Source: Actinomycetota bacterium (GTDB taxonomy: Bacteria > Actinomycetota > Rubrobacteria > Rubrobacterales > Rubrobacteraceae). From it: a stretch of DNA of 61,579 nt. Position 1 is the stretch's first letter. Each line of letters begins with the position of its first letter. Made by a program: the position numbers and the translations under genes. Below the pieces are notes generated by a model. The model searched no databases, was not told the DNA's origin, and worked only from the letters and a program-made list of their open reading frames with translations. Shown one piece after another: positions 31,458 through 41,250 of this stretch. The DNA lies in NCBI GenBank assembly GCA_004563715.1, contig SIRX01000150.1, positions 1 to 61,579 of the forward strand, in the 5' to 3' direction.

Positions 31458-33413
31458 CTAGGGAAGCGGAATCGTCACCGTAACCGAGGTCCCTTTGTTC
31501 GGCTCGCTCCAGCTTCCGAGTTCGCCCCCCAGGGCCAGGGCTCGCTCCCGCATACCGGAACGCCCAGTGCCTTCGGGGGTAGCGCTCGGATCGAAACCCC
31601 GCCCGTCGTCGGAAACGCGGACCCGCAACTCGTTGCCGCTGCCGCTCAAGACTACGCTGGCGTGATGGGCGCCGGAATGACGGCGGACGTTGACCAGGGC
31701 TTCCTGTACGATGCGCAAAAGCTCCCGGCTTACCGGCTCGGGGATGTCTTGCGGGAACTCTGCTTCCACGCGCAGGGTTAGTTCGCACTCCGGGATCAAC
31801 TGCCGGTTGTACTCCACCAGCGACTGTACCTCGCGTATCAGCGGCTTCCCGCTATCCCGGCGCAGGTCGTAGATGGTCTCGCGCAGTCCGGCTATCGCCT
31901 GCCGAAGGGCGTCGAGCGCCGCCTCGACCCCGTTTTCCTGCGCCGCCGCGGGTTCCTGTTCGATCTGGACGGCCTGTATCGTTTGCAGGGCGCCTGAGAT
32001 GTCCTGCAACACCAGGTCGTGCAGGTCACGGGCGATCCGCCGCCGCTCGCCCTCCCGGATCTCCAGCAGCGCCTCTTCGGCCCGCTTGCGTCCGGTGAGG
32101 TCTACCCCTTGCGCGAAGATGCCAGAGATTGACCCGTCGGCATCGCGCAGGGGCTGGTACACGAAGTCCACGTAGCGCTCCTCGAGCGGTTGGCCGGGTT
32201 GCCGCTGGAGCATGATGCGCTCGTCAGCCCCGACGAACGTCTTTCCCGTTCGGTACACGCGGTCCAGGATCTCGAAAAAGCCCTGCCCTTCGACTTCCGG
32301 GAGGGCTTCCCGCATCGGCTTTCCGAGAACGTTCCGGTTGCCGACGAGCTTGAGGTAGAGATCGTTGGCCCGCTCGATGACGTGCTCCGGCCCTCGCAAG
32401 ACGCACATGAGCGAAGGGGCTTCGTTGAATATATCCGCGAGTCGCTGGCGCTCAGCCTGCACCTCTCTCAGCAGGCGCTCGCGCTCTTTTCCAGCCTGTA
32501 TGCGCTCGGTGATGTCCTGGACCACGCCGATAGCGAACTGCCGGTCTGTCTCGGAGGCCTGCACCAGAAAGCGTGTCAGGCGTCCCCAGACCACCTGGCC
32601 GTTTTTGCGTACGTAGCGTTTCTCTAGCTCGTAGGAGTCGCGTTCTCCAGCCACCAGCTCCCGGTAGAGGCGCCTGTCCGCCCCCGCATCTTCGGGGTGG
32701 GTTCTCTCGCTGAAGTGCGTGTCGAAGAGTTGTTGCTCGTCGTAGCCGACCAGCTCTTGCAGCGCCGGGTTGCTGGCTACTATCCGGCCGTCGGGATCGG
32801 CGATGGCTATACCTATTGGCGCCCCCTCGAAGAGCGCCCTGAAGCGCGCCTCGCTTTCTCGAAGCTCCTTTAGCGCCCGGTTGTGCTCGTCTACCAGCGC
32901 CTTACGGGCCTCGAACCCCATAGCGTGCGCCACGGCGATGGAAGCCATGCCGGCCATGACCTGCAGCGCGTGAACATCGTCCTCTCCAAAAGCGCAGGTT
33001 CTGGTAGAGAACACCTGCAAGATCCCCGAGATCCCAGGCCCGCGCCGCAGGGGTGCGACGATTATCGAGCGGACGCCTGCGTGCCGGGCTGCCTCGCGGT
33101 CCACGCGCGCGTCTGTCTCAGCGTCGTCGGAACGCAGGACCTCGCCGCTGCTGAAGCACTCTTCGGAGAGGCTGCTGCCGGCCTCGCGCCGCACATCCAG
33201 ATGGGGGTCTACAGTGCCGCTTCCGGCGCGGTACACGAGTTCGTCTTCCTCGACCAGTGCTATAGTCGCCCCGCAGGCGCCGGTCAGCGCCCGTGTGCGC
33301 CGCACGATGACGGCCATGGTCTTCTCCAGATCAGGCTCAGCGGCCGCAAGCTCCTGCTGTATCGCCAAGATAGACGGGAGGAGTCCGGCTTCGTTGCGGT
33401 GTGTGTTCTCCAT
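31458..33413 (-). CDS. GAF-PAS-PAS sensor histidine kinase (NarL/LuxR-partner type)
   Basis: 651 residues from the ATG at 33413 with GAGGTGA upstream; the frame continues to 33563 without a better start. Order: GAF (about 25-175), PAS 1 (about 185-305), PAS 2 (about 320-440), HisKA_3 dimerisation domain with the phospho-acceptor His in ARDLHDLVLQD, and an HATPase domain with N box LLRIVQEALVNVRRH and G box VSDDGRGFD. There is no membrane segment, so it senses a cytoplasmic ligand or redox state. The usual NarL-type response regulator is not encoded nearby; the neighbours are c-di-GMP genes. Confidence 0.92.
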   Translation of the reverse strand: MENTHRNEAGLLPSILAIQQELAAAEPDLEKTMAVIVRRTRALTGACGATIALVEEDELVYRAGSGTVDPHLDVRREAGSSLSEECFSSGEVLRSDDAETDARVDREAARHAGVRSIIVAPLRRGPGISGILQVFSTRTCAFGEDDVHALQVMAGMASIAVAHAMGFEARKALVDEHNRALKELRESEARFRALFEGAPIGIAIADPDGRIVASNPALQELVGYDEQQLFDTHFSERTHPEDAGADRRLYRELVAGERDSYELEKRYVRKNGQVVWGRLTRFLVQASETDRQFAIGVVQDITERIQAGKERERLLREVQAERQRLADIFNEAPSLMCVLRGPEHVIERANDLYLKLVGNRNVLGKPMREALPEVEGQGFFEILDRVYRTGKTFVGADERIMLQRQPGQPLEERYVDFVYQPLRDADGSISGIFAQGVDLTGRKRAEEALLEIREGERRRIARDLHDLVLQDISGALQTIQAVQIEQEPAAAQENGVEAALDALRQAIAGLRETIYDLRRDSGKPLIREVQSLVEYNRQLIPECELTLRVEAEFPQDIPEPVSRELLRIVQEALVNVRRHSGAHHASVVLSGSGNELRVRVSDDGRGFDPSATPEGTGRSGMRERALALGGELGSWSEPNKGTSVTVTIPLP

Positions 33414-33522
33414 ATACTTCACCTCTTTTGGAGGGTCGTTTGGGGTACGGTGAACCGCCGAAGAATCCCCGCCCGTTACAGGTAGTCTAGCCGGAAACAT
33501 AGTTGAGTTACAGGCCATCTTT

Positions 33523-33536
33523 CTACCAGGTGGTAG
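33523..33536. promoter_or_regulatory. Palindrome upstream of the histidine kinase
   Basis: CTACCA-GG-TGGTAG lies 110 bases before the kinase start, in the gap to the HD-GYP gene. It could be a regulator site; nothing else supports it. Confidence 0.25.
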
Positions 33537-33609
33537 CGCATTCTGTCCAGATAAACCCGGCAAGGGGCTCCAGAAAAAGAGCCATGAGGTACGCGAATGT
33601 AGACGTGTG

Positions 33610-33632
33610 CTCTGGCCGCTCGTCCGCCAGAG
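33610..33632 (-). terminator. Hairpin after the GAF-GGDEF-HD-GYP gene
   Basis: Perfect 7-bp arms (CTCTGGC and GCCAGAG) with a 9-base loop, about 28 bases past the minus-strand stop. No T-run follows on that strand. Confidence 0.4.
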
Positions 33633-33659
33633 GTGGTCCGGGCGGGTTTATGCGCGACC

Positions 33660-35309
33660 TTAACTGGTGTTGCTCGCGGGCTGCTCGTCCACACGCCGCA
33701 GGACTTCAGCGAGCGCAGCGGTAACGTCGGGGTCGAACTGGGTGCCGGAATTGTGCAGGATCTCCTCCAGCGCTGCGCTGCGGGCTATCTTCGGGCGGTA
33801 GGGTTTGTCGTGGATCATGGTGCTGAACGTGTCTGCGGCGCACACGATGCGGGCCGGAAGCGGTATTTCGTCCCCGGCGAGCCCGTCGGGGTAGCCCCCG
33901 CCGTCGAAGCGCTCGTGGTGGTGCTTGACCGCCGGTGTCGCGGCCGACAGCCCGGCCTCCTCCAGAATCCTGGCACCCAGCTCGGGATGGCTCCGGATGA
34001 TCTCGTACTCCTCGCGGTCGAGCCGGCCGGGCTTGCGCAGTATGGAGTCGGGGATGCCGATCTTGCCGATGTCGTGCAGCAGCGCCCCCACGGCGAGCAG
34101 GTCTATCTCGGTCTCCGGCAGCGACATCTGGTACCCGATGCTCGTCGAGAGTTGCGAGACGTCCTTCATGTGGAAGCCCAGGTAGGGATCACGAACCTCG
34201 GCGGCTTTTATCAAGGTCAGGACCGTCTGCTCTTCCTGTATCCGGGGCTTCCGGTCTCGCAGGGTCTCCGAAAGCTCGGTTATGGGGCCGCCGAAAATGT
34301 TCTCGGGCCGGGAGGCCGCCTCGGAGGCCGCCTCGGAGGCGGCTTCCAGCAGCGCGATGTTCGGGCCTCCGGCTTCCTCCGGTTTGATCGTCACGAACCC
34401 CACGGACACGTCGATGGGGGCTGCGAAGTCGCTGGTCAAAGCCGCTATCGTCTGCCGCAGGCGGACGGCGGTCTGACGGGTCCGGGAGCTGCCCCTCTTC
34501 AACACCGCCAGCCCGTGTCCTTGCCAAAAAACCCAGCGGAACTTCTCCTCCAGATCCAGGCTGATCCTGGCCAGGAGGGCGTCCCAGGCCCCGGGGCCGT
34601 ACACCCGGTTGTAGTCCTGCGGGCGGCGGGGCTTTGCCACGAACAGCGTCATGGTGTTGTTCTGCAAGAACTCCCGGTCCAGCACGCGCGTAAGCGAGGT
34701 CTCACCGGGCAGCCCCGAAACGGGGTCACGTCCGCCGGGGGCGTTTCTCTCGGCCAGGTCGAGGGCCTGCGCAGCCTGCTCGGCTACCTGGCTGAGCGTG
34801 TGCTCTTCCTGGACGCCTACGGTATTCCCTCCGACGATCAGGGCCCCTATACCCTGCCCTTCCGGTGAAATTATGGGGATCGCCACGAGCCCTTCTATGC
34901 CCTCCAGCACCTCCTCGTCGCGCAAGACCTCATGGGTGTTGCTGCTCCACAGGACGAGGCGTTGGATCTTGGGGTGCCACCAGGTGGGGTAGGCGTCGAG
35001 GCCGGCCTCGGCCGAAGTGCCGTGCCGTGACCCGCGCAGCAGGGCCGCGTGTGCGTACGGGGCGTCGACCAACTCCCGAGCCGTGCGCGCCGTCCACTGC
35101 AAGATGCCGTCGGAGTCCATAACCTTCAGGACCGCCGCGAGGTTCGATAGCAGCGTGGACATCTGCTTTTCATGCCTATTGGGGTCAACGCTTTCGGGGG
35201 GGCTATCGGATTTGTAGGGCTTCCGGCGCGGGAGCCAGGCGGCCAGGGAAGCGACCGCTACCGAGATCAGCAAGATGAGCCCTGCTCCCGCCATCACCTC
35301 GGGGGCCAC
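33660..35309 (-). CDS. Membrane-anchored GAF - degenerate GGDEF - HD-GYP protein
   Basis: 549 residues: one transmembrane helix (about 7-27), GAF (about 45-185), a GGDEF-fold region that starts like the family (DPVSGLPGE) but has lost the signature (FWQGHGLAVL where GGDEF should be), and an intact HD-GYP domain (about 360-545) with LLHDIGKIGIPD and HHERFDGGGYPDGLAG. It should hydrolyse c-di-GMP, with the GAF and dead GGDEF parts regulating it. A linker carries three EAAS repeats coded by a 12-base tandem repeat (34311-34346). A good promoter lies 165 bases upstream. Confidence 0.92.
   Translation of the reverse strand: MAPEVMAGAGLILLISVAVASLAAWLPRRKPYKSDSPPESVDPNRHEKQMSTLLSNLAAVLKVMDSDGILQWTARTARELVDAPYAHAALLRGSRHGTSAEAGLDAYPTWWHPKIQRLVLWSSNTHEVLRDEEVLEGIEGLVAIPIISPEGQGIGALIVGGNTVGVQEEHTLSQVAEQAAQALDLAERNAPGGRDPVSGLPGETSLTRVLDREFLQNNTMTLFVAKPRRPQDYNRVYGPGAWDALLARISLDLEEKFRWVFWQGHGLAVLKRGSSRTRQTAVRLRQTIAALTSDFAAPIDVSVGFVTIKPEEAGGPNIALLEAASEAASEAASRPENIFGGPITELSETLRDRKPRIQEEQTVLTLIKAAEVRDPYLGFHMKDVSQLSTSIGYQMSLPETEIDLLAVGALLHDIGKIGIPDSILRKPGRLDREEYEIIRSHPELGARILEEAGLSAATPAVKHHHERFDGGGYPDGLAGDEIPLPARIVCAADTFSTMIHDKPYRPKIARSAALEEILHNSGTQFDPDVTAALAEVLRRVDEQPASNTS
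34311..34346. repeat. 12-base tandem repeat inside the HD-GYP gene
   Basis: Three copies of a GGAGGCCGCCTC-type unit (the last with two changes) encode EAAS x3 in the linker before the HD-GYP domain. This could vary in length between strains. Confidence 0.7.
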
Positions 35310-35473
35310 GAAAGCCTCCCTGGTGCGGCAACCGCGGCACGTCCGTCTATCGCTCGCGCAAAGCTCATCAAGCGCTTTCCAATACCATCACACTGCACAT
35401 AAGGCTGGTAGGCGAGGGCTTTTGCACCAAGCGCACCCAAAACACCCCACCAGCTACGAAACCAACCATAAAA

Positions 35474-35501
35474 TTATTACGGTTTCGGGCACACTTGTCA
35501 A
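35474..35501 (-). promoter_or_regulatory. Promoter of the GAF-GGDEF-HD-GYP gene
   Basis: On the minus strand there is a perfect -35 TTGACA (35496-35501), a 16-base spacer and TAATAA as -10 (35474-35479) in an AT-rich patch, giving a leader of about 155 bases. Confidence 0.65.
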
Positions 35502-35537
35502 CTGGTTCTCGCAAAGACAAAGTGGGGATGCTCCGGA

Positions 35538-36950
35538 TCACAGCTTTCTTACCGGTGCTACGGGAGCGGTCGCCTGCGGGGCGGACGACACTGCCGAATC
35601 CGGGAAGATAAAACGGTCGTCGTCAGCCATACGGTACCCGTCGGATTCGGTATCCAGAATCCTCAGGAAAGCCCGGACCACCACCTCGTCGAACTCGGTT
35701 CCGGCGCCGGCGATAAGTTTGGTTCGCGCCTCGGCAAAGCCCAGACCCGGACGGCGGGGCTGGTCCAGCACCATAGCGGCGTAGGCCTGCGACACCGCCA
35801 GGATCTTTGCCTCCAGCGGGATCCAGGCCCCCCGCAGCCGGTCCGGATACCCACGGCCGTCGGGACGTTCGTGGTGCCAGCGTACCCAACTAGCCATCTC
35901 CTTGAACTCCGGGACCGCCGCGAGGGTCCGTTCGCCGCGTTCCGAATGTTCGGCGAGCTTGCTCCGGCCGATCGAGTTGAGCTTGCCGGTCTCCACGAGC
36001 AACTCGTCGGGAAGACCGAACAGGCCGACGTTGTGGATCAGGGCCGCCAGATGCACCTGCTTTACCCGCAGCTCCCCGAGCTTCATCTCGCGGGCCAGGT
36101 CCGTGGCGAAGACCGCCGTGGCCGCCGCATGCCGGTCGGTGTACCCGTCTCGCTGTCCCATCTCCCGGATGATCATGGTCCCAAACGCCACGTTGGAGCT
36201 CGTGAGCGACTCCTCCAGCGAACGGACCCGCGACCGCAACTCCTGTATCTCTCGTACCTGCTCGCGCGAGCGGTAAACGAGGAATTGACTGCCCATAGCT
36301 CCTGCGCCTACCACTACCGTCGCCAGCGGGCCATACGCTACTAGAACCAGCGCGCCTACTCCCGCAGTGAGCACGTTGATGGCGTCTGAGAGCAAGTAGG
36401 GTTGCCAGTTCTCCTCCCAAGTTTCACTGAATGACTGGCCGTATTTGACCTTGAGCAGACCACTATCTATGGCTTCGTTCGTTAGTATCAACGTCACTCC
36501 GGCCGCGAGTGCCCCATAGAAGATGCTTGTAAATTCGAAGACACTTGTGAGATTTTCTCTTTGTACGGTTAGCAAAGGTTTTGAGACGAAAGAGAATGCT
36601 ATGCCGGCCAAGTAGATAATTGTAATGTTCTGACCGGCCTCGTAACCGGTGCGTAGCCAGTCACGGCGTCCTGCGATAATAGAAGCAGGCAAAGCAGCCA
36701 AAACAGCCCAGGTTGGTCCTAACACTACGACTGCCAATATTAGCCCTACGTCCCAAGTTCCTAAGCTGGTATGTTCGCCAATGCGCACCGTAAGAAATGT
36801 GCTCAACAGCACAAAGGCAGCAAGGACTATTGTTCCTACGACGAGCCGAGAATCAAACTCGACCCCGTACCAGTATATCCAGGAGGAGGCTAGAGCAAAG
36901 GCGCAGATCAATAGAGCGCCTACATAAATCCTAAGATGTATCTCGCTCAA
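35538..36950 (-). CDS. Multi-pass membrane HD-GYP-like protein with degenerate HD motif, downstream of the hexapeptide array
   Basis: 470 residues from the TTG at 36950 (AGGTAG three bases upstream). The N-terminal ~235 residues form about six to seven membrane helices resembling a MASE-type sensor. A short coiled coil (about 238-258) leads into an HD-GYP domain (about 265-440). The GYP part is intact (HHERPDGRGYPD), but the metal-binding HD reads LIHNVGLFGLPD: Asp is Asn, and the usual Lys after DIG is Leu. It is therefore more likely a c-di-GMP sensor or a crippled phosphodiesterase. Upstream lie a 12-bp inverted repeat next to its ribosome-binding site and an array of MARRSW mini-ORFs, so it is probably regulated during translation. 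The N-terminal half is lower in GC than the C-terminal half. Confidence 0.88.
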   Translation of the reverse strand: MSEIHLRIYVGALLICAFALASSWIYWYGVEFDSRLVVGTIVLAAFVLLSTFLTVRIGEHTSLGTWDVGLILAVVVLGPTWAVLAALPASIIAGRRDWLRTGYEAGQNITIIYLAGIAFSFVSKPLLTVQRENLTSVFEFTSIFYGALAAGVTLILTNEAIDSGLLKVKYGQSFSETWEENWQPYLLSDAINVLTAGVGALVLVAYGPLATVVVGAGAMGSQFLVYRSREQVREIQELRSRVRSLEESLTSSNVAFGTMIIREMGQRDGYTDRHAAATAVFATDLAREMKLGELRVKQVHLAALIHNVGLFGLPDELLVETGKLNSIGRSKLAEHSERGERTLAAVPEFKEMASWVRWHHERPDGRGYPDRLRGAWIPLEAKILAVSQAYAAMVLDQPRRPGLGFAEARTKLIAGAGTEFDEVVVRAFLRILDTESDGYRMADDDRFIFPDSAVSSAPQATAPVAPVRKL

Positions 36951-36960
36951 GGTCTACCTG

Positions 36961-37015
36961 GTACGGAGCCTGCGTGCATAACGTCGTATTGTGCCACAAG
37001 ACACAGGCTCCGTAC
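36961..37015 (-). promoter_or_regulatory. 12-bp inverted repeat adjoining the HD-GYP ribosome-binding site
   Basis: GTACGGAGCCTG (36961-36972) and CAGGCTCCGTAC (37004-37015) are perfectly complementary around a 31-base loop. On the transcript the hairpin begins 20 bases after the stop of the last MARRSW mini-ORF. It ends one base before the AGGTAG of the HD-GYP gene, so it could block ribosome access. Confidence 0.65.
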
Positions 37016-37034
37016 ATAGGAAAAGAGTTGGTTC

Positions 37035-37055
37035 TTACCAGCTTCTGCGAGCCAC
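37035..37055 (-). CDS. Mini-ORF 1, hexapeptide MARRSW
   Basis: GTG start, TAA stop, coding Met-Ala-Arg-Arg-Ser-Trp. GAGAGGTGA (37063-37071) ends seven bases before the start. It is the copy nearest the HD-GYP gene; its stop lies 20 bases before the 12-bp inverted repeat. Codons used are GCT, CGC, AGA, AGC and TGG. Confidence 0.7.
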   Translation of the reverse strand: MARRSW

Positions 37056-37121
37056 TGATTACTCACCTCTCATTCTATCTACTGTTCGCTTCCAATCGGC
37101 CTTGTATGCTTACTTGCCTGG

Positions 37122-37142
37122 TTACCAACTCCTGCGAGCCAT
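37122..37142 (-). CDS. Mini-ORF 2, hexapeptide MARRSW
   Basis: ATG start, TAA stop. GGGTGGTGA (37150-37158) ends seven bases before the start. Codons GCT, CGC, AGG, AGT and TGG: Arg4 and Ser5 use different synonymous codons from copy 1. Confidence 0.7.
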   Translation of the reverse strand: MARRSW

Positions 37143-37197
37143 CGATTGTTCACCACCCTTTCAAAAATTGTTTTTTCTCCTATGCTTACTTATCGAA

Positions 37198-37218
37198 CTA
37201 CCAACTCCGGCGGGCCAC
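37198..37218 (-). CDS. Mini-ORF 3, hexapeptide MARRSW
   Basis: GTG start, TAG stop. GGGAGGTGA (37225-37233) ends six bases before the start. Codons GCC, CGC, CGG, AGT and TGG: the Arg4 codon differs from copies 1 and 2 in its first base yet stays Arg. Confidence 0.7.
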   Translation of the reverse strand: MARRSW

Positions 37219-37270
37219 AGAGGTTCACCTCCCTACAAACGTTTCGGTCTCGACCGTTACCCGACTCGCC

Positions 37271-37291
37271 TCACCAGGACCTGCGCGCCAT
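37271..37291 (-). CDS. Mini-ORF 4, hexapeptide MARRSW
   Basis: ATG start, TGA stop. AGGGGGTGA (37299-37307) ends seven bases before the start. Codons GCG, CGC, AGG, TCC and TGG: Ser5 uses the other serine codon family, which needs two base changes. Confidence 0.7.
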   Translation of the reverse strand: MARRSW

Positions 37292-37349
37292 TGACTTCTC
37301 ACCCCCTCTCCAATACCCTTCTTATTTGTGGGGTCTGTTCGTTACCAAG

Positions 37350-37370
37350 TTACCAAGCTCTGCGGACTAT
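37350..37370 (-). pseudogene. Decayed mini-ORF 5 (IVRRAW with ATA at the start position)
   Basis: Same length, with Arg-Arg and Trp-stop kept, but the start is ATA and two residues differ. GGTGA lies 10 bases upstream. It is either inactive or started poorly. Confidence 0.5.
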
Positions 37371-37445
37371 TAATCTCTCATCACCTTGACGCTCGACTCG
37401 GTTTTCTATTGGGCATACTCGCCCATAGTCCTCGGCTACCAATCA

Positions 37446-37463
37446 TCACAGGACCTCAGCTAT
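37446..37463 (-). pseudogene. Decayed mini-ORF 6
   Basis: ATA-GCT-GAG-GTC-CTG-TGA aligns with copy 4 after a 3-base and a 1-base gap, which destroys the peptide. The purine-rich stretch upstream has no proper GGTGA. Confidence 0.4.
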
Positions 37464-37603
37464 ATCTACCCCCCTCAGTAGGGTCTATTGACATGCATGC
37501 TACTTGATCTGATGGGTGGAGGTAAGGGTATTTTTCACGAAACTCTGCTTCTTTGGCGTGATTCTGTCTGTGTAGCGTGTTTTTTTGTGGAGATTTTCGC
37601 TTG

Positions 37604-38809
37604 TCAGCCGTGCTGGCTGCGGGTTTTCGCTGAACCTGCGGCTATAAAGAGCAGGATGAGCACGCCCGCCACGGCGGTTGCTGAGCCCGCGAAGAGGTAC
37701 GTCGTGCGGGGGCCGACGGCGTCCACGATCAGGCCCCCGGCGGGGTACGCCACGGCTTCCGCGACGCTGTACCCCATGAACCTCACGGAGAACACCCGGC
37801 CCAGCAGCGCGTCGGGGACCCGTCTCTGCAGTATGGTGTCGGTCGCCACGTTGTCTATGCCGTTCGCGACGCCGGCTATCGTCAGCGCCCCCAGGGCCAG
37901 GGCGAAGGTCGGCGACAGGCCGGTGGCGAACAGCGCCAGCGCCCAAACGAAGATGCCCGTGAAGTAGAGGAAGATCAGGTTTACCCGGTTGTTCAGAATG
38001 GCCGTCAGGGCGCTGCCGGCTACCATTCCCGCCCCCCACAGGCTCACGAGCAGCCCGTAACCGGTGTCTCCCGCGTCGAAGGTGTCACGGGCCAGGAAGA
38101 CCTCGGCCGGTATCGTCAGGTCGGTCACCAGCATCGTGAGGAACGCTCCCACCACGATAGCCAGGGGTATCCGGGCGCCGGCCAGGTAGCCGAAGCCGGT
38201 CTTCAACTCCCGCACGAAGCTCTCTTCGTCGTCCCTCTGCGGACGGGGGAGGGGTATCAGGGCGAGGAAGCCCGCGGAGATCAGGTACGTCACGGCGTTC
38301 AGAACAAACGCCACGTCCACGCCGTACGCGGACACCATCAACCCCCCCAGAGCCGGTCCCAGCATCATCGAGAGGCTGAAGGTGCCGCTGATCAAGGCGT
38401 TGGCCCGGATAAGCTCCTCACTGGAGACGATGCTCGGGAAGGCGGCCCGGATGGTGGGGTTGAAAACGGCCCGGGCCAGACCCATCAGGAAGACCAGCAC
38501 GTACAGGACCACGAGCTCCCGGGTAAAGACCACCGAGACGATCAGGCCCGCGCGGCAAATGTCGCTCACCACCAGGATAGCCCGCCGGTCCAGGCGGTCC
38601 GCCAGAACGCCGGCCAGCGGGCTGAGGAGGGTCGGCAGGAGCCGGGCTACCAGCAAGCCCCCGACCGCCGAAGCGCTCCCGGTGATCTCGGCCACCAGGA
38701 TCACCAGCGCCACCATGGAGATGGCGTCGCCCACGAAAGACAGCCCCTGGCCTGCCCAGAGTTTGAGGAAGCGTGAGTTGTTCAGCAGCGAGCGGCGGCC
38801 GCTCTCCAA
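37604..38809 (-). CDS. MFS transporter (macrolide-efflux-like, 12 helices)
   Basis: 401 residues from a TTG with GGAGGTAACGT upstream. The N terminus (FLKLWAGQGLSFVGDAISMVAL) and the loop LADRLDRRAILVVSD are typical of the MefA/drug-efflux branch of the major facilitator superfamily. The second half carries the related VPDALLGRVFSV loop. Twelve hydrophobic segments are visible. The substrate is unknown; the branch exports hydrophobic drugs or antibiotics by proton antiport. It is upstream of, and on the same strand as, the MARRSW array and HD-GYP gene, so read-through transcription is possible. Confidence 0.9.
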   Translation of the reverse strand: MESGRRSLLNNSRFLKLWAGQGLSFVGDAISMVALVILVAEITGSASAVGGLLVARLLPTLLSPLAGVLADRLDRRAILVVSDICRAGLIVSVVFTRELVVLYVLVFLMGLARAVFNPTIRAAFPSIVSSEELIRANALISGTFSLSMMLGPALGGLMVSAYGVDVAFVLNAVTYLISAGFLALIPLPRPQRDDEESFVRELKTGFGYLAGARIPLAIVVGAFLTMLVTDLTIPAEVFLARDTFDAGDTGYGLLVSLWGAGMVAGSALTAILNNRVNLIFLYFTGIFVWALALFATGLSPTFALALGALTIAGVANGIDNVATDTILQRRVPDALLGRVFSVRFMGYSVAEAVAYPAGGLIVDAVGPRTTYLFAGSATAVAGVLILLFIAAGSAKTRSQHG

Positions 38810-39108
38810 ACGTTACCTCCAGGCGTAGAAGGCTCCGGAGACGAATGATACACCCGTACGATATACAGGTCTTGTCTCTGGATTTTGTTCGTTCAAGTAC
38901 TACACGCTTCTATCAGATACAGTGTCGAGGCGACAAAATACTGCATTTGGGTGATACGCCGGGCTTCGTCCGGATGTACGCTGGTACGAAATGCCAGCTC
39001 GAGAAGGGGCAACATGGTAGGGCTGAAGTATGGTGCGGGCAAACCTGGTTACAGGCAAACTTCGCGTGTGACGGAAGCATGCGAAAGGTAACGAATGGGG
39101 TGAAGGGC
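38810..39108. other. 299-base divergent intergenic region
   Basis: This lies between the MFS gene (minus) and the GGDEF-EAL gene (plus). It contains small hairpins (CCGG...CCGG near 38960, GCTGG...CCAGC near 38980-39000, CCTG...CAGG near 39045) and two GGCAAAC direct repeats near 39037 and 39053. No gene and no recognised riboswitch fold. Confidence 0.4.
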
Positions 39109-41250
39109 ATGCTGCTGTACGGAGACCAGGACGAACAGGTTGCTTCCGGCGGAGAAGCCGGGCGAGGCTTGTTCGAGGCGCTGGTTCGCAACGCCTCCGA
39201 CGGTATAGCCGTCCTGGACGCCAGGGGCGGGATCCGTTACGTGGGTGACTCGCTGAGCAGGTCCCTGGGGTACAGTCCGGCGCAGGTCCTCGGTCGCAAC
39301 GGTTCCGGGCTGGCCGGGTTGATCCACCCGGCTGACCAGCCTGCTTTCGAAGAGATACTGACAGGCGTCCTGGAGAAGCCCGGGGAGGTGTTGCGAACCG
39401 ACCTGCGCCTCTGCCGCGCGGACAGGACCTGGGTCTGGATGGAGGCGTCCGTCCAGAACTTGCTGGAGGACAGAGACGTGGCCGGTGTGGCGCTCAACTT
39501 GCGGGACATAGTGGAGCGCAAGAGGGCCGAGGAGGCCTACCGGCGAGGCGAGGAACGGTTCCGGTCCCTGGTACACAGCGCGCAGGACATTATCTGCGTG
39601 GCCGACGCGGAGGCCCGGGTGCGCTACCTGAGCCCCGCTTTCGAACGGGTGCTGGGCCGGGACCCTGAAGACCGGTTGGGTAAGAGCTGCTTCGAACACG
39701 TACATCCGGAGGACGCAGGTCGGGCGCGGGCCGCTTTCGATCTCCTGCTCGAAGACCCTTCCAGTGAGCCTGCAGCGGAGATCCGGGTGGGTCACGAAGA
39801 CGGCTCCTGGCGCTACCTGGAGATAGTCGGGCGCAACCTGCTCTCTGATCCCAACGTAGAGGGCATCGTGCTCAACGCCCGGGACATCACCGGGCGAAAA
39901 GCGTTCGAAGAGCAACTCGTCCACCGGGCCTTCCACGACGCGTTGACCGGTTTGCCCAACCGGGCGCTGTTCGCCGACCGGCTCGGGCACGCCATAAAAC
40001 GCGCCGGCCGCCGGGAGGGCGCGGTCGCGGTCCTGTTCCTGGACCTGGACGGGTTCAAGCTCATAAACGACTCTATGGGTCACGACGTTGGCGACGAGTT
40101 GCTCGTCGCGGTGGGCCGGCGTCTCAAGAAGATACTGCGTCCCGAGGACACTGTTGCCCGGCTCGGCGGCGACGAGTTCGCGGTGCTGCTCGAAGACGCC
40201 AGAGGACCTGAGGACGCCAAGGAGGTCACCGAGCGCATCCTGGGCGAGTTGGAGAAGCCTTTCGATCTCCCGGGCCAACGGGTGTTTGTCAGCGCCAGCA
40301 TCGGGATAGCCGTCGGTGGTTGCGACCCAAACCGTCCGGCGGAACTCCTGAGAAAGGCCGACCTGGCGATGTACCGGGCCAAAGACCACGGCCGCGGGCG
40401 TTACAGCTGCTTCGATACCAGCCTCGACGTTCGCATCCGGGAGCGGCTGGGCCTGGAGAACGACCTGCGGCGCGCCCTCGAGCGCGCCGAGTTCGAAGTC
40501 CATTACCAGCCGACGGTGCGGCTCGCATCGGGCACCGTCTCCGGCGTGGAAGCCCTGCTGCGCTGGCGGCACCCCGAGAGAGGCCTTCTCGAACCCCGGG
40601 AGTTTGTCCGGACGGCGGAGGAGATGGACCTCATGCTTCCCATCGGGGAGTGGGTCGTCAGAGAGGTCTGCCGCCAGCTGCGGGCGTGGCAGCAGCGTCG
40701 CCCCACGCGCCCGCCGCTCAAAGCGAGCGTCAACCTCTCCGGGAGGCAGCTGGCGGACCCCGGTCTGGTGCGAACGATCTCCGAGCTTTTGCAGGGAACC
40801 GGGCTGGAGCCCGGCACGCTCTACCTGGAGATAACCGAGAGCGTTTTCATGGACGACCCGTCTTCGAACCTGCACGTTTTCCGGGCGTTGAAGCAACTGG
40901 GGGCGCGGCTGGTGCTGGACAACTTCGGAACCGGGTACTCCTCGCTGGCCTACCTCAAGTGGTTGCCCATAGACGCCGTAAAGATCGACCGCACTTTCGT
41001 CCGCTGCCTGGATGAAGACCCGGAGTACGCGCTTCTGGTCTCGGCGATGATCCAGCTCTCCCACGCCTTGCGCAAGGAGGTTTTCGCGGGTGGGGTGGAG
41101 ACCGCCGGCCAGCTGACCTGCTTGCTCGACATGGGCTGCGACGTGGTGCAGGGGGACTACTTCTGGCCCCCGCTCCCGGCCGCGGCGACGCACGAGGTCT
41201 TCGCCCCGGACCGCACCGCCCCGGTAAACCGTCCGCCCCCGGCCGGGTAA
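39109..41250 (+). CDS. PAS-PAS-GGDEF-EAL c-di-GMP protein
   Basis: 713 residues from the ATG at 39109 (GGGTGAAGG upstream); the frame is open back to 38773 through non-family sequence. PAS 1 (about 20-135), PAS 2 (about 145-265), GGDEF (about 270-430) with the intact signature ARLGGDEFAVLL, and EAL (about 440-700) with EALLRW, SVNLSGRQL, EITESVF, KIDRTFV and GGVETAGQ. The metal motif that reads DDFGTG in active enzymes is DNFGTG here, so phosphodiesterase activity may be low and the protein may act mainly as a cyclase or sensor. No membrane segment, so it is cytoplasmic. Confidence 0.92.
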   Translation: MLLYGDQDEQVASGGEAGRGLFEALVRNASDGIAVLDARGGIRYVGDSLSRSLGYSPAQVLGRNGSGLAGLIHPADQPAFEEILTGVLEKPGEVLRTDLRLCRADRTWVWMEASVQNLLEDRDVAGVALNLRDIVERKRAEEAYRRGEERFRSLVHSAQDIICVADAEARVRYLSPAFERVLGRDPEDRLGKSCFEHVHPEDAGRARAAFDLLLEDPSSEPAAEIRVGHEDGSWRYLEIVGRNLLSDPNVEGIVLNARDITGRKAFEEQLVHRAFHDALTGLPNRALFADRLGHAIKRAGRREGAVAVLFLDLDGFKLINDSMGHDVGDELLVAVGRRLKKILRPEDTVARLGGDEFAVLLEDARGPEDAKEVTERILGELEKPFDLPGQRVFVSASIGIAVGGCDPNRPAELLRKADLAMYRAKDHGRGRYSCFDTSLDVRIRERLGLENDLRRALERAEFEVHYQPTVRLASGTVSGVEALLRWRHPERGLLEPREFVRTAEEMDLMLPIGEWVVREVCRQLRAWQQRRPTRPPLKASVNLSGRQLADPGLVRTISELLQGTGLEPGTLYLEITESVFMDDPSSNLHVFRALKQLGARLVLDNFGTGYSSLAYLKWLPIDAVKIDRTFVRCLDEDPEYALLVSAMIQLSHALRKEVFAGGVETAGQLTCLLDMGCDVVQGDYFWPPLPAAATHEVFAPDRTAPVNRPPPAG

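Follow-up and report, generated by a model that had tools for sequence, protein, structure and literature searches.

What four adjacent genes of seven codons each (stop included) are for, when all four encode the same Met-Ala-Arg-Arg-Ser-Trp peptide (MARRSW), is the question raised by the minus strand at positions 37035–37303 of the window, the whole stretch of 61,579 nucleotides of Rubrobacteraceae DNA that was analysed. Each unit of this array carries GGTGA 6–7 bases 5' of its start codon, and the first-pass annotation was exact to the letter both on the mini-ORFs and on the start, stop, Ala, Arg4 and Ser codons by which the units differ (Table 1). It had also listed two decayed copies further upstream within 37035–37463, one of which is retained here as a degenerate fifth copy that has lost its start codon; the other (~37440–37460) has TGGTAG without a corresponding frame ahead of it and was not counted. 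With two mismatches tolerated, the window contains 7 matches to the MARRSW motif compared with 1.2 in shuffled sequence (7 was reached by 0 of 100 shuffles), and all four exact matches are the array units. A MARRSW-like pattern searched for in 150 genomes was found only as the four array units of the source genome, with no match in the 149 relatives scanned, and an Rfam search of the window returned no family. Overlapping the array on the plus strand (36974–37389) are antisense ORFs 106 and 132 aa long; the synonymous pattern between units fits the minus-strand frame.

Table 1. Features of the window in and around the MARRSW array.
Feature	Coordinates	Strand	Basis or detail
GAF + HD-GYP protein, intact HDIGK, likely operon partner	33660–35309	−	Pfam domains, position
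Receptor candidate, 470 aa, N-terminal multi-helix membrane domain and degenerate HD-GYP domain	35538–36950	−	HD_5/HD Pfam match, predicted fold
Inverted repeat GTACGGAGCCTG / CAGGCTCCGTAC around the putative −10	36961–37015	−	Score 37.5, 0/40 shuffles
Putative extended −10 of the receptor gene, TGG-CACAAT (36993–36988)	36988–36996	−	Read from sequence
Unit 1, GGTGA ribosome-binding site and mini-ORF MARRSW	37035–37067	−	ORF 37035–37055, GTG GCT CGC AGA AGC TGG TAA
Unit 2, GGTGA and mini-ORF MARRSW	37122–37154	−	ORF 37122–37142, ATG GCT CGC AGG AGT TGG TAA
Unit 3, GGTGA and mini-ORF MARRSW	37198–37229	−	ORF 37198–37218, GTG GCC CGC CGG AGT TGG TAG
Unit 4, GGTGA and mini-ORF MARRSW	37271–37303	−	ORF 37271–37291, ATG GCG CGC AGG TCC TGG TGA
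Degenerate fifth copy, GGTGA and xVRRAW, start codon lost	37350–37385	−	Frame 37350–37370, ATA GTC CGC AGA GCT TGG TAA
MFS transporter gene, upstream of the array	37604–38809	−	Conserved neighbour in the window's clade only

The gene directly 3' of the array encodes a candidate membrane receptor, and 40 Rubrobacteraceae genomes were searched for its relatives, which were present in 35; the upstream sequence of each was read. The named genomes with relatives are those of Rubrobacter and other Rubrobacteraceae, phylum Actinomycetota. In total, 34 arrays (76 units) lie directly upstream of this one receptor family, with at least two copies in 28 of the 34, and unit spacing within arrays is fairly regular, mostly 72–117 nt. 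Each array has its own peptide, including MGRKAW (from a second array in the source genome), MFWARKSW, MARKIW, MTEGVRGW and MTFGQRHGW; the Rubrobacter taiwanensis locus encodes MTGFGKNRLW, and copy number is four at the MSEGKIHAW array and five at the MPRIASW array. Trp is the last residue in all 34 arrays, and every array found by a search that did not require Trp still ended in it. Genome-wide pattern searches of 23 Rubrobacteraceae genomes placed clustered units at receptor loci only, same-genus genomes that lack the receptor have only scattered single pattern matches, and a scan of IMG/VR gave three single chance-like matches and no array. Of the conservation in other strains, whose absence the first-pass annotation had named as one ground for refutation, half holds: relatives lack the exact MARRSW sequence, which is private to the source genome, yet share the array together with its position and design. 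No recognisable array precedes 8 of the 43 Rubrobacteraceae receptor loci (L023, L024, L026, L027, L033, L041, L053 and L054); several of these array-less receptors also have a missing or altered KLNS stretch in the HD domain, which suggests that the peptide and part of the output were lost together. At another locus (L059, 2508–4402), five PRIASW copies accompany a receptor gene broken by a frameshift or stop.

Between the units of the 28 multi-copy arrays pN/pS is 0.20, and the 20 nt 3' of the stop are 29% identical, which is approximately random. The last five residues are identical in 93–100% of unit pairs within arrays, alongside many synonymous differences, and agreement falls further towards the N-terminus, to 84% at the sixth residue and 70% at the seventh. 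Between loci, positions −2 to −6 are only 13–25% identical, so that the peptide varies by locus while start, stop and Shine-Dalgarno sequence are retained. The Shine-Dalgarno match of the units has a mean of 7.6 nt compared with 5.0 nt in shuffled sequence, and folding of the units revealed no RNA structure (mean z +0.16). Selection on the translated product, proposed earlier from the home array alone, is strongly supported by these comparisons. Coding selection, the lack of RNA structure and the long anti-Shine-Dalgarno matches together indicate that the peptide is the product and that its working part is about five residues, which for MARRSW would probably be ARRSW.

The receptor candidate had been described as a c-di-GMP-type gene, a description that holds for its HD_5/HD domains but not for its catalytic HD motif, which is degenerate (HNVGL). 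It resembles HD-GYP c-di-GMP phosphodiesterases in domain match and fold but lacks their HDxGK motif. None of the 39 Rubrobacteraceae receptors examined has this motif, which most of the 73 outgroup proteins, from other Actinomycetota families, still have; a family-wide shift of the receptor HD-GYP domain to a pseudo-enzyme is probable. Foldseek matched the AlphaFold models of both the window receptor (pLDDT 88) and an outgroup membrane domain (pLDDT 86) to the solved ECF S-components RibU, FolT, BioY and ThiT, the best matches having probabilities of mostly 0.97–1.00 and target TM scores of 0.46–0.66, with best E-values of only 0.02–0.1. The two models thus predict the multi-helix membrane fold of ECF S-components, a fold that binds small ligands, and the membrane domain can be described as MASE9/5TM-LYT-like. 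MASE9 (PF20972) scores above cut-off in several outgroup receptors, whereas in the Rubrobacteraceae it gives weak matches in 4 of 38 receptors and none in the window receptor; we know of no MASE9 ligand. A scan of GTDB contigs with a single receptor protein found no relative, and an alignment-based scan returned mostly other HD-GYP proteins together with the named Rubrobacter records.

The peptides of genomes with two or three arrays differ from each other, and in a partial Mantel test on 30 linked peptide-receptor pairs, peptide distance correlated with membrane-domain distance when the HD domain was controlled for (partial r 0.27, permutation p 0.0002), whereas the converse, peptide distance against the HD domain given the membrane domain, did not (r −0.10, p 0.92). 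That the peptide tracks the membrane domain is suggestive only, since this domain evolves faster and relatedness may account for some of the signal.

The gene neighbourhood varies by clade, and the receptor alone is constant beside the arrays. The adjacent GAF-HD-GYP gene and the upstream MFS gene, which resembles macrolide exporters, are confined to the same clade, and in another clade the array has a glycosyltransferase-like gene as neighbour. Comparison of the neighbourhoods of all clades revealed no transporter, peptidase or modifying enzyme that adjoins all arrays, and a reading as a modified peptide (RiPP) or as a peptide with a dedicated exporter was dropped for this reason. Pfam detected no TPR domain among the locus neighbours, which are HD-GYP, GAF-HD-GYP, PAS-histidine kinase and MFS proteins.

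Receptors of the outgroup families have, in the corresponding position (~50–400 nt upstream, same strand), a small ORF that resembles a Sec-leadered propeptide, for example MRAKLFGAMTALVMLLAASGGRWTW, MKTKIIVLLTSLAALVLGGGAGWRW and MKRIFLLLTTLATLVLSGGAAARW. One of these ORFs, MKKLMRVLIVLGSLVGICSTVRW, is present in two tandem copies and has a close relative with three, and another, MKLRLVAMASTLVALFQVAGAHFKW, occurs in two copies that differ in H or Q. The propeptides are 20–29 residues long and end in basic/aromatic tails (...GGAGWRW, ...STVRW), the predicted mature tail being the 4–6 residues past a small-x-small site judged by eye, a length that agrees with the five residues conserved inside the Rubrobacter arrays. 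A strict scan for ORFs with a charged and hydrophobic leader recovered 35 of the 73 outgroup loci compared with 0.4 in shuffles and 1 in antisense, and a propeptide profile, trained on loci from the same 73-locus set on which it was counted, matched 47 of 73 loci in sense (23 of the 47 Trp-ended) and 0 of 73 in antisense. The other 26 loci have no propeptide match, and three of them carry leaderless W-ended mini-ORFs; one other family has the leaderless single forms MSVKAW, MRVSGW and MRFVGW. A Sec leader (charged N-terminus, hydrophobic stretch and small-x-small site) is absent from the Rubrobacteraceae arrays. The output of the outgroup receptors is an intact HD-GYP domain or a histidine kinase, and three leadered loci (L249, L253 and L258) encode sensor histidine kinases (HisKA_3; two with MASE9 matches) in place of HD-GYP below a leadered peptide ORF, which argues that it is the sensor domain, rather than the output, that the peptide accompanies.

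Taken together, it is quite probable that the adjacent MASE9/ECF-S-type receptor has as its ligands leaderless peptides made by the minicistrons of the array. One of the earlier suggestions, that the units serve as genes for a short signalling peptide, accommodates the coding selection, the linkage of array and receptor and the leadered homologues alike. The array would form a small, separately transcribed unit of leaderless minicistrons that contribute one peptide copy each, with several identical cistrons raising the peptide dose, and the peptide would bind the ECF-S/MASE9-type membrane domain of the neighbouring receptor and thereby control the HD-GYP-type output, with c-di-GMP as the presumed currency. 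As the output domain is degenerate in the Rubrobacteraceae, the receptor probably works through a partner, for which the neighbouring GAF-HD-GYP protein is a candidate, and paralogous receptors with peptides of their own would keep the channels apart. The peptide would act outside the cell or at the membrane, which supposes export of the leaderless form and signalling between cells; the array neighbourhoods revealed no route by which a leaderless peptide could be exported.

Since a corresponding peptide gene occupies this position in relatives across the phylum, the pairs would constitute an undescribed peptide-signal/receptor family, of which the leaderless tandem array would be a variant. 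We consider there to be a reasonably good case for a phylum-wide class of secreted or leaderless basic/aromatic ligands, 4–6 residues long, of the orphan MASE9/ECF-S sensor, which would directly control HD-GYP or histidine-kinase outputs, tandem leaderless minicistrons having replaced the leadered propeptide in the Rubrobacteraceae. In this family the leader would have been lost and the copies multiplied, a direction suggested by the wider spread of the leadered form.

The peptide could instead act on the adjacent receptor from within the cell or the membrane, as a private self-signal or activity tag that is never exported, with the leadered homologues serving as small membrane partners. The lack of a leader and of a conserved export gene in the Rubrobacteraceae would fit, as would the leadered homologues, which are short hydrophobic ORFs whose cleavage is predicted by eye only; we nevertheless regard this as improbable, for the five conserved C-terminal residues correspond to what is predicted to be the mature segment of the leadered homologues, and ECF S-components are established to take up their ligands from outside.

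The first-pass annotation had offered a different role, in which the units are serial ribosome-stalling leaders. Such leaders would pause at the Trp-stop, or on Arg or Trp shortage or a drug, and would control the receptor in cis. The interval between array and receptor gene bears on this directly. At the home locus the receptor start lies ~85 nt 3' of the last MARRSW unit, and the putative extended −10 in this interval corresponds to TGC-nAnAAT in clade relatives. An extended −10 (TGC-N0-2-NANRAT) is present between array and receptor at 19 of 33 loci compared with 1.8 in shuffles, the home locus, which has TGG, falling outside the 19, and at two loci the −10 hexamer ends 7 nt ahead of the receptor start codon. 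As many receptor genes thus have a putative promoter of their own 3' of the array, the array is probably a transcription unit apart from the receptor and unlikely to be its cis-acting leader, although read-through from the array may occur. Ahead of 16 arrays (1.3 expected) there is a GTAGCA-type motif, clear in one clade only, where it may be the promoter of the array itself; a simple sigma-70 and terminator scan detected no promoter in the home stretch and a single 9-of-12 match at L009. The arms of the inverted repeat around the putative −10 co-vary between clade genomes (also L012, L013, L014, L016, L017, L025 and L034), and because they change together, an RNA stem is as likely as the operator for which the repeat was first taken. 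Its 3' arm lies within the 5' UTR of the receptor gene, which it could mask in transcripts that read through.

Like attenuators such as TnaC and the erm leaders, the units are short ORFs with strong ribosome-binding sites upstream of a gene, and the basic residues near the C-terminus, the Trp before the stop in every array and the likeness of the upstream MFS gene to macrolide exporters, though it is located before the array, would suit a stalling leader. Unlike attenuators, they have no unit structure and no alternative structures for attenuation, they occur as many identical copies with a promoter 3' of the ORFs, and their peptides vary, even between arrays of one genome, so that no common arrest motif exists beyond Trp; homologous loci, moreover, have at the same place Sec-leadered ORFs that often lack a terminal Trp. 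Stalling leaders are thus a very unlikely explanation. It is hardly credible that the units are repeated regulatory DNA or RNA elements, such as protein-binding sites, with an accidental peptide reading, as the regular tandem spacing and the overlapping antisense ORFs might hint, given that unit changes are synonymous in the minus-strand frame (AGC/TCC for serine and AGG/CGG for arginine among them), that structure is lacking, that start, stop and Shine-Dalgarno sequence persist where locus sequences differ, and that the pN/pS value contradicts it.

Among known systems, a peptide ligand of the adjacent receptor is closest in gene form to the leaderless communication peptides, such as SIP/RopB of Streptococcus pyogenes and relatives, in which an ultrasmall ORF (8 aa in SIP) lies beside the gene for its receptor, a cytosolic RRNPPA transcription factor of Firmicutes (PMC10518010); the words 'tandem' and 'Actinobacteria' are absent from that paper. 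Both have a leaderless ultrasmall ORF with a ribosome-binding site next to a receptor and codes that differ between receptors, whereas the arrays described here have an integral membrane HD-GYP receptor candidate of Actinomycetota in place of a TPR receptor, and a basic, Trp-ended peptide encoded by up to five separate cistrons. Phr pheromones are short C-terminal peptides of 5–6 residues with basic residues. In Rap systems, tandem copies occur within one exported, protease-cut Phr propeptide (PMC11343458), so that several peptide copies per locus are common to both systems, while each Rubrobacteraceae copy is a separate leaderless minicistron with its own ribosome-binding site. A literature search, which had most subscription journals and preprints outside its coverage and did not query MASE9 by name, returned no tandem mini-ORF arrays, MASE9 ligands or HD-GYP-paired peptides. 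Neither of these two systems defines the present case, in which receptor class and gene design would be new; peptide signalling in general is well known.

If correct, the ligand reading would provide a widespread orphan membrane sensor with a class of ligands and would link short peptides as signals to c-di-GMP-type outputs in Actinomycetota. Of the 342 genera of this phylum, a 2016 review lists only 25 as reported to use quorum sensing, with experimental evidence for nine (PMC4748050). It would also mean that genes of seven codons, too small for annotation pipelines, are retained in tandem under selection. As the peptides can be deduced from genome sequence, many peptide-receptor pairs would lend themselves to direct tests with synthetic peptides.

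The surroundings of the home array (31458–41250) are rich in signalling genes. They encode a PAS/GAF histidine kinase, the GAF-HD-GYP protein and the degenerate HD-GYP protein and, on the plus strand at 38773–41250, a PAS protein that has GGDEF and EAL-like motifs.
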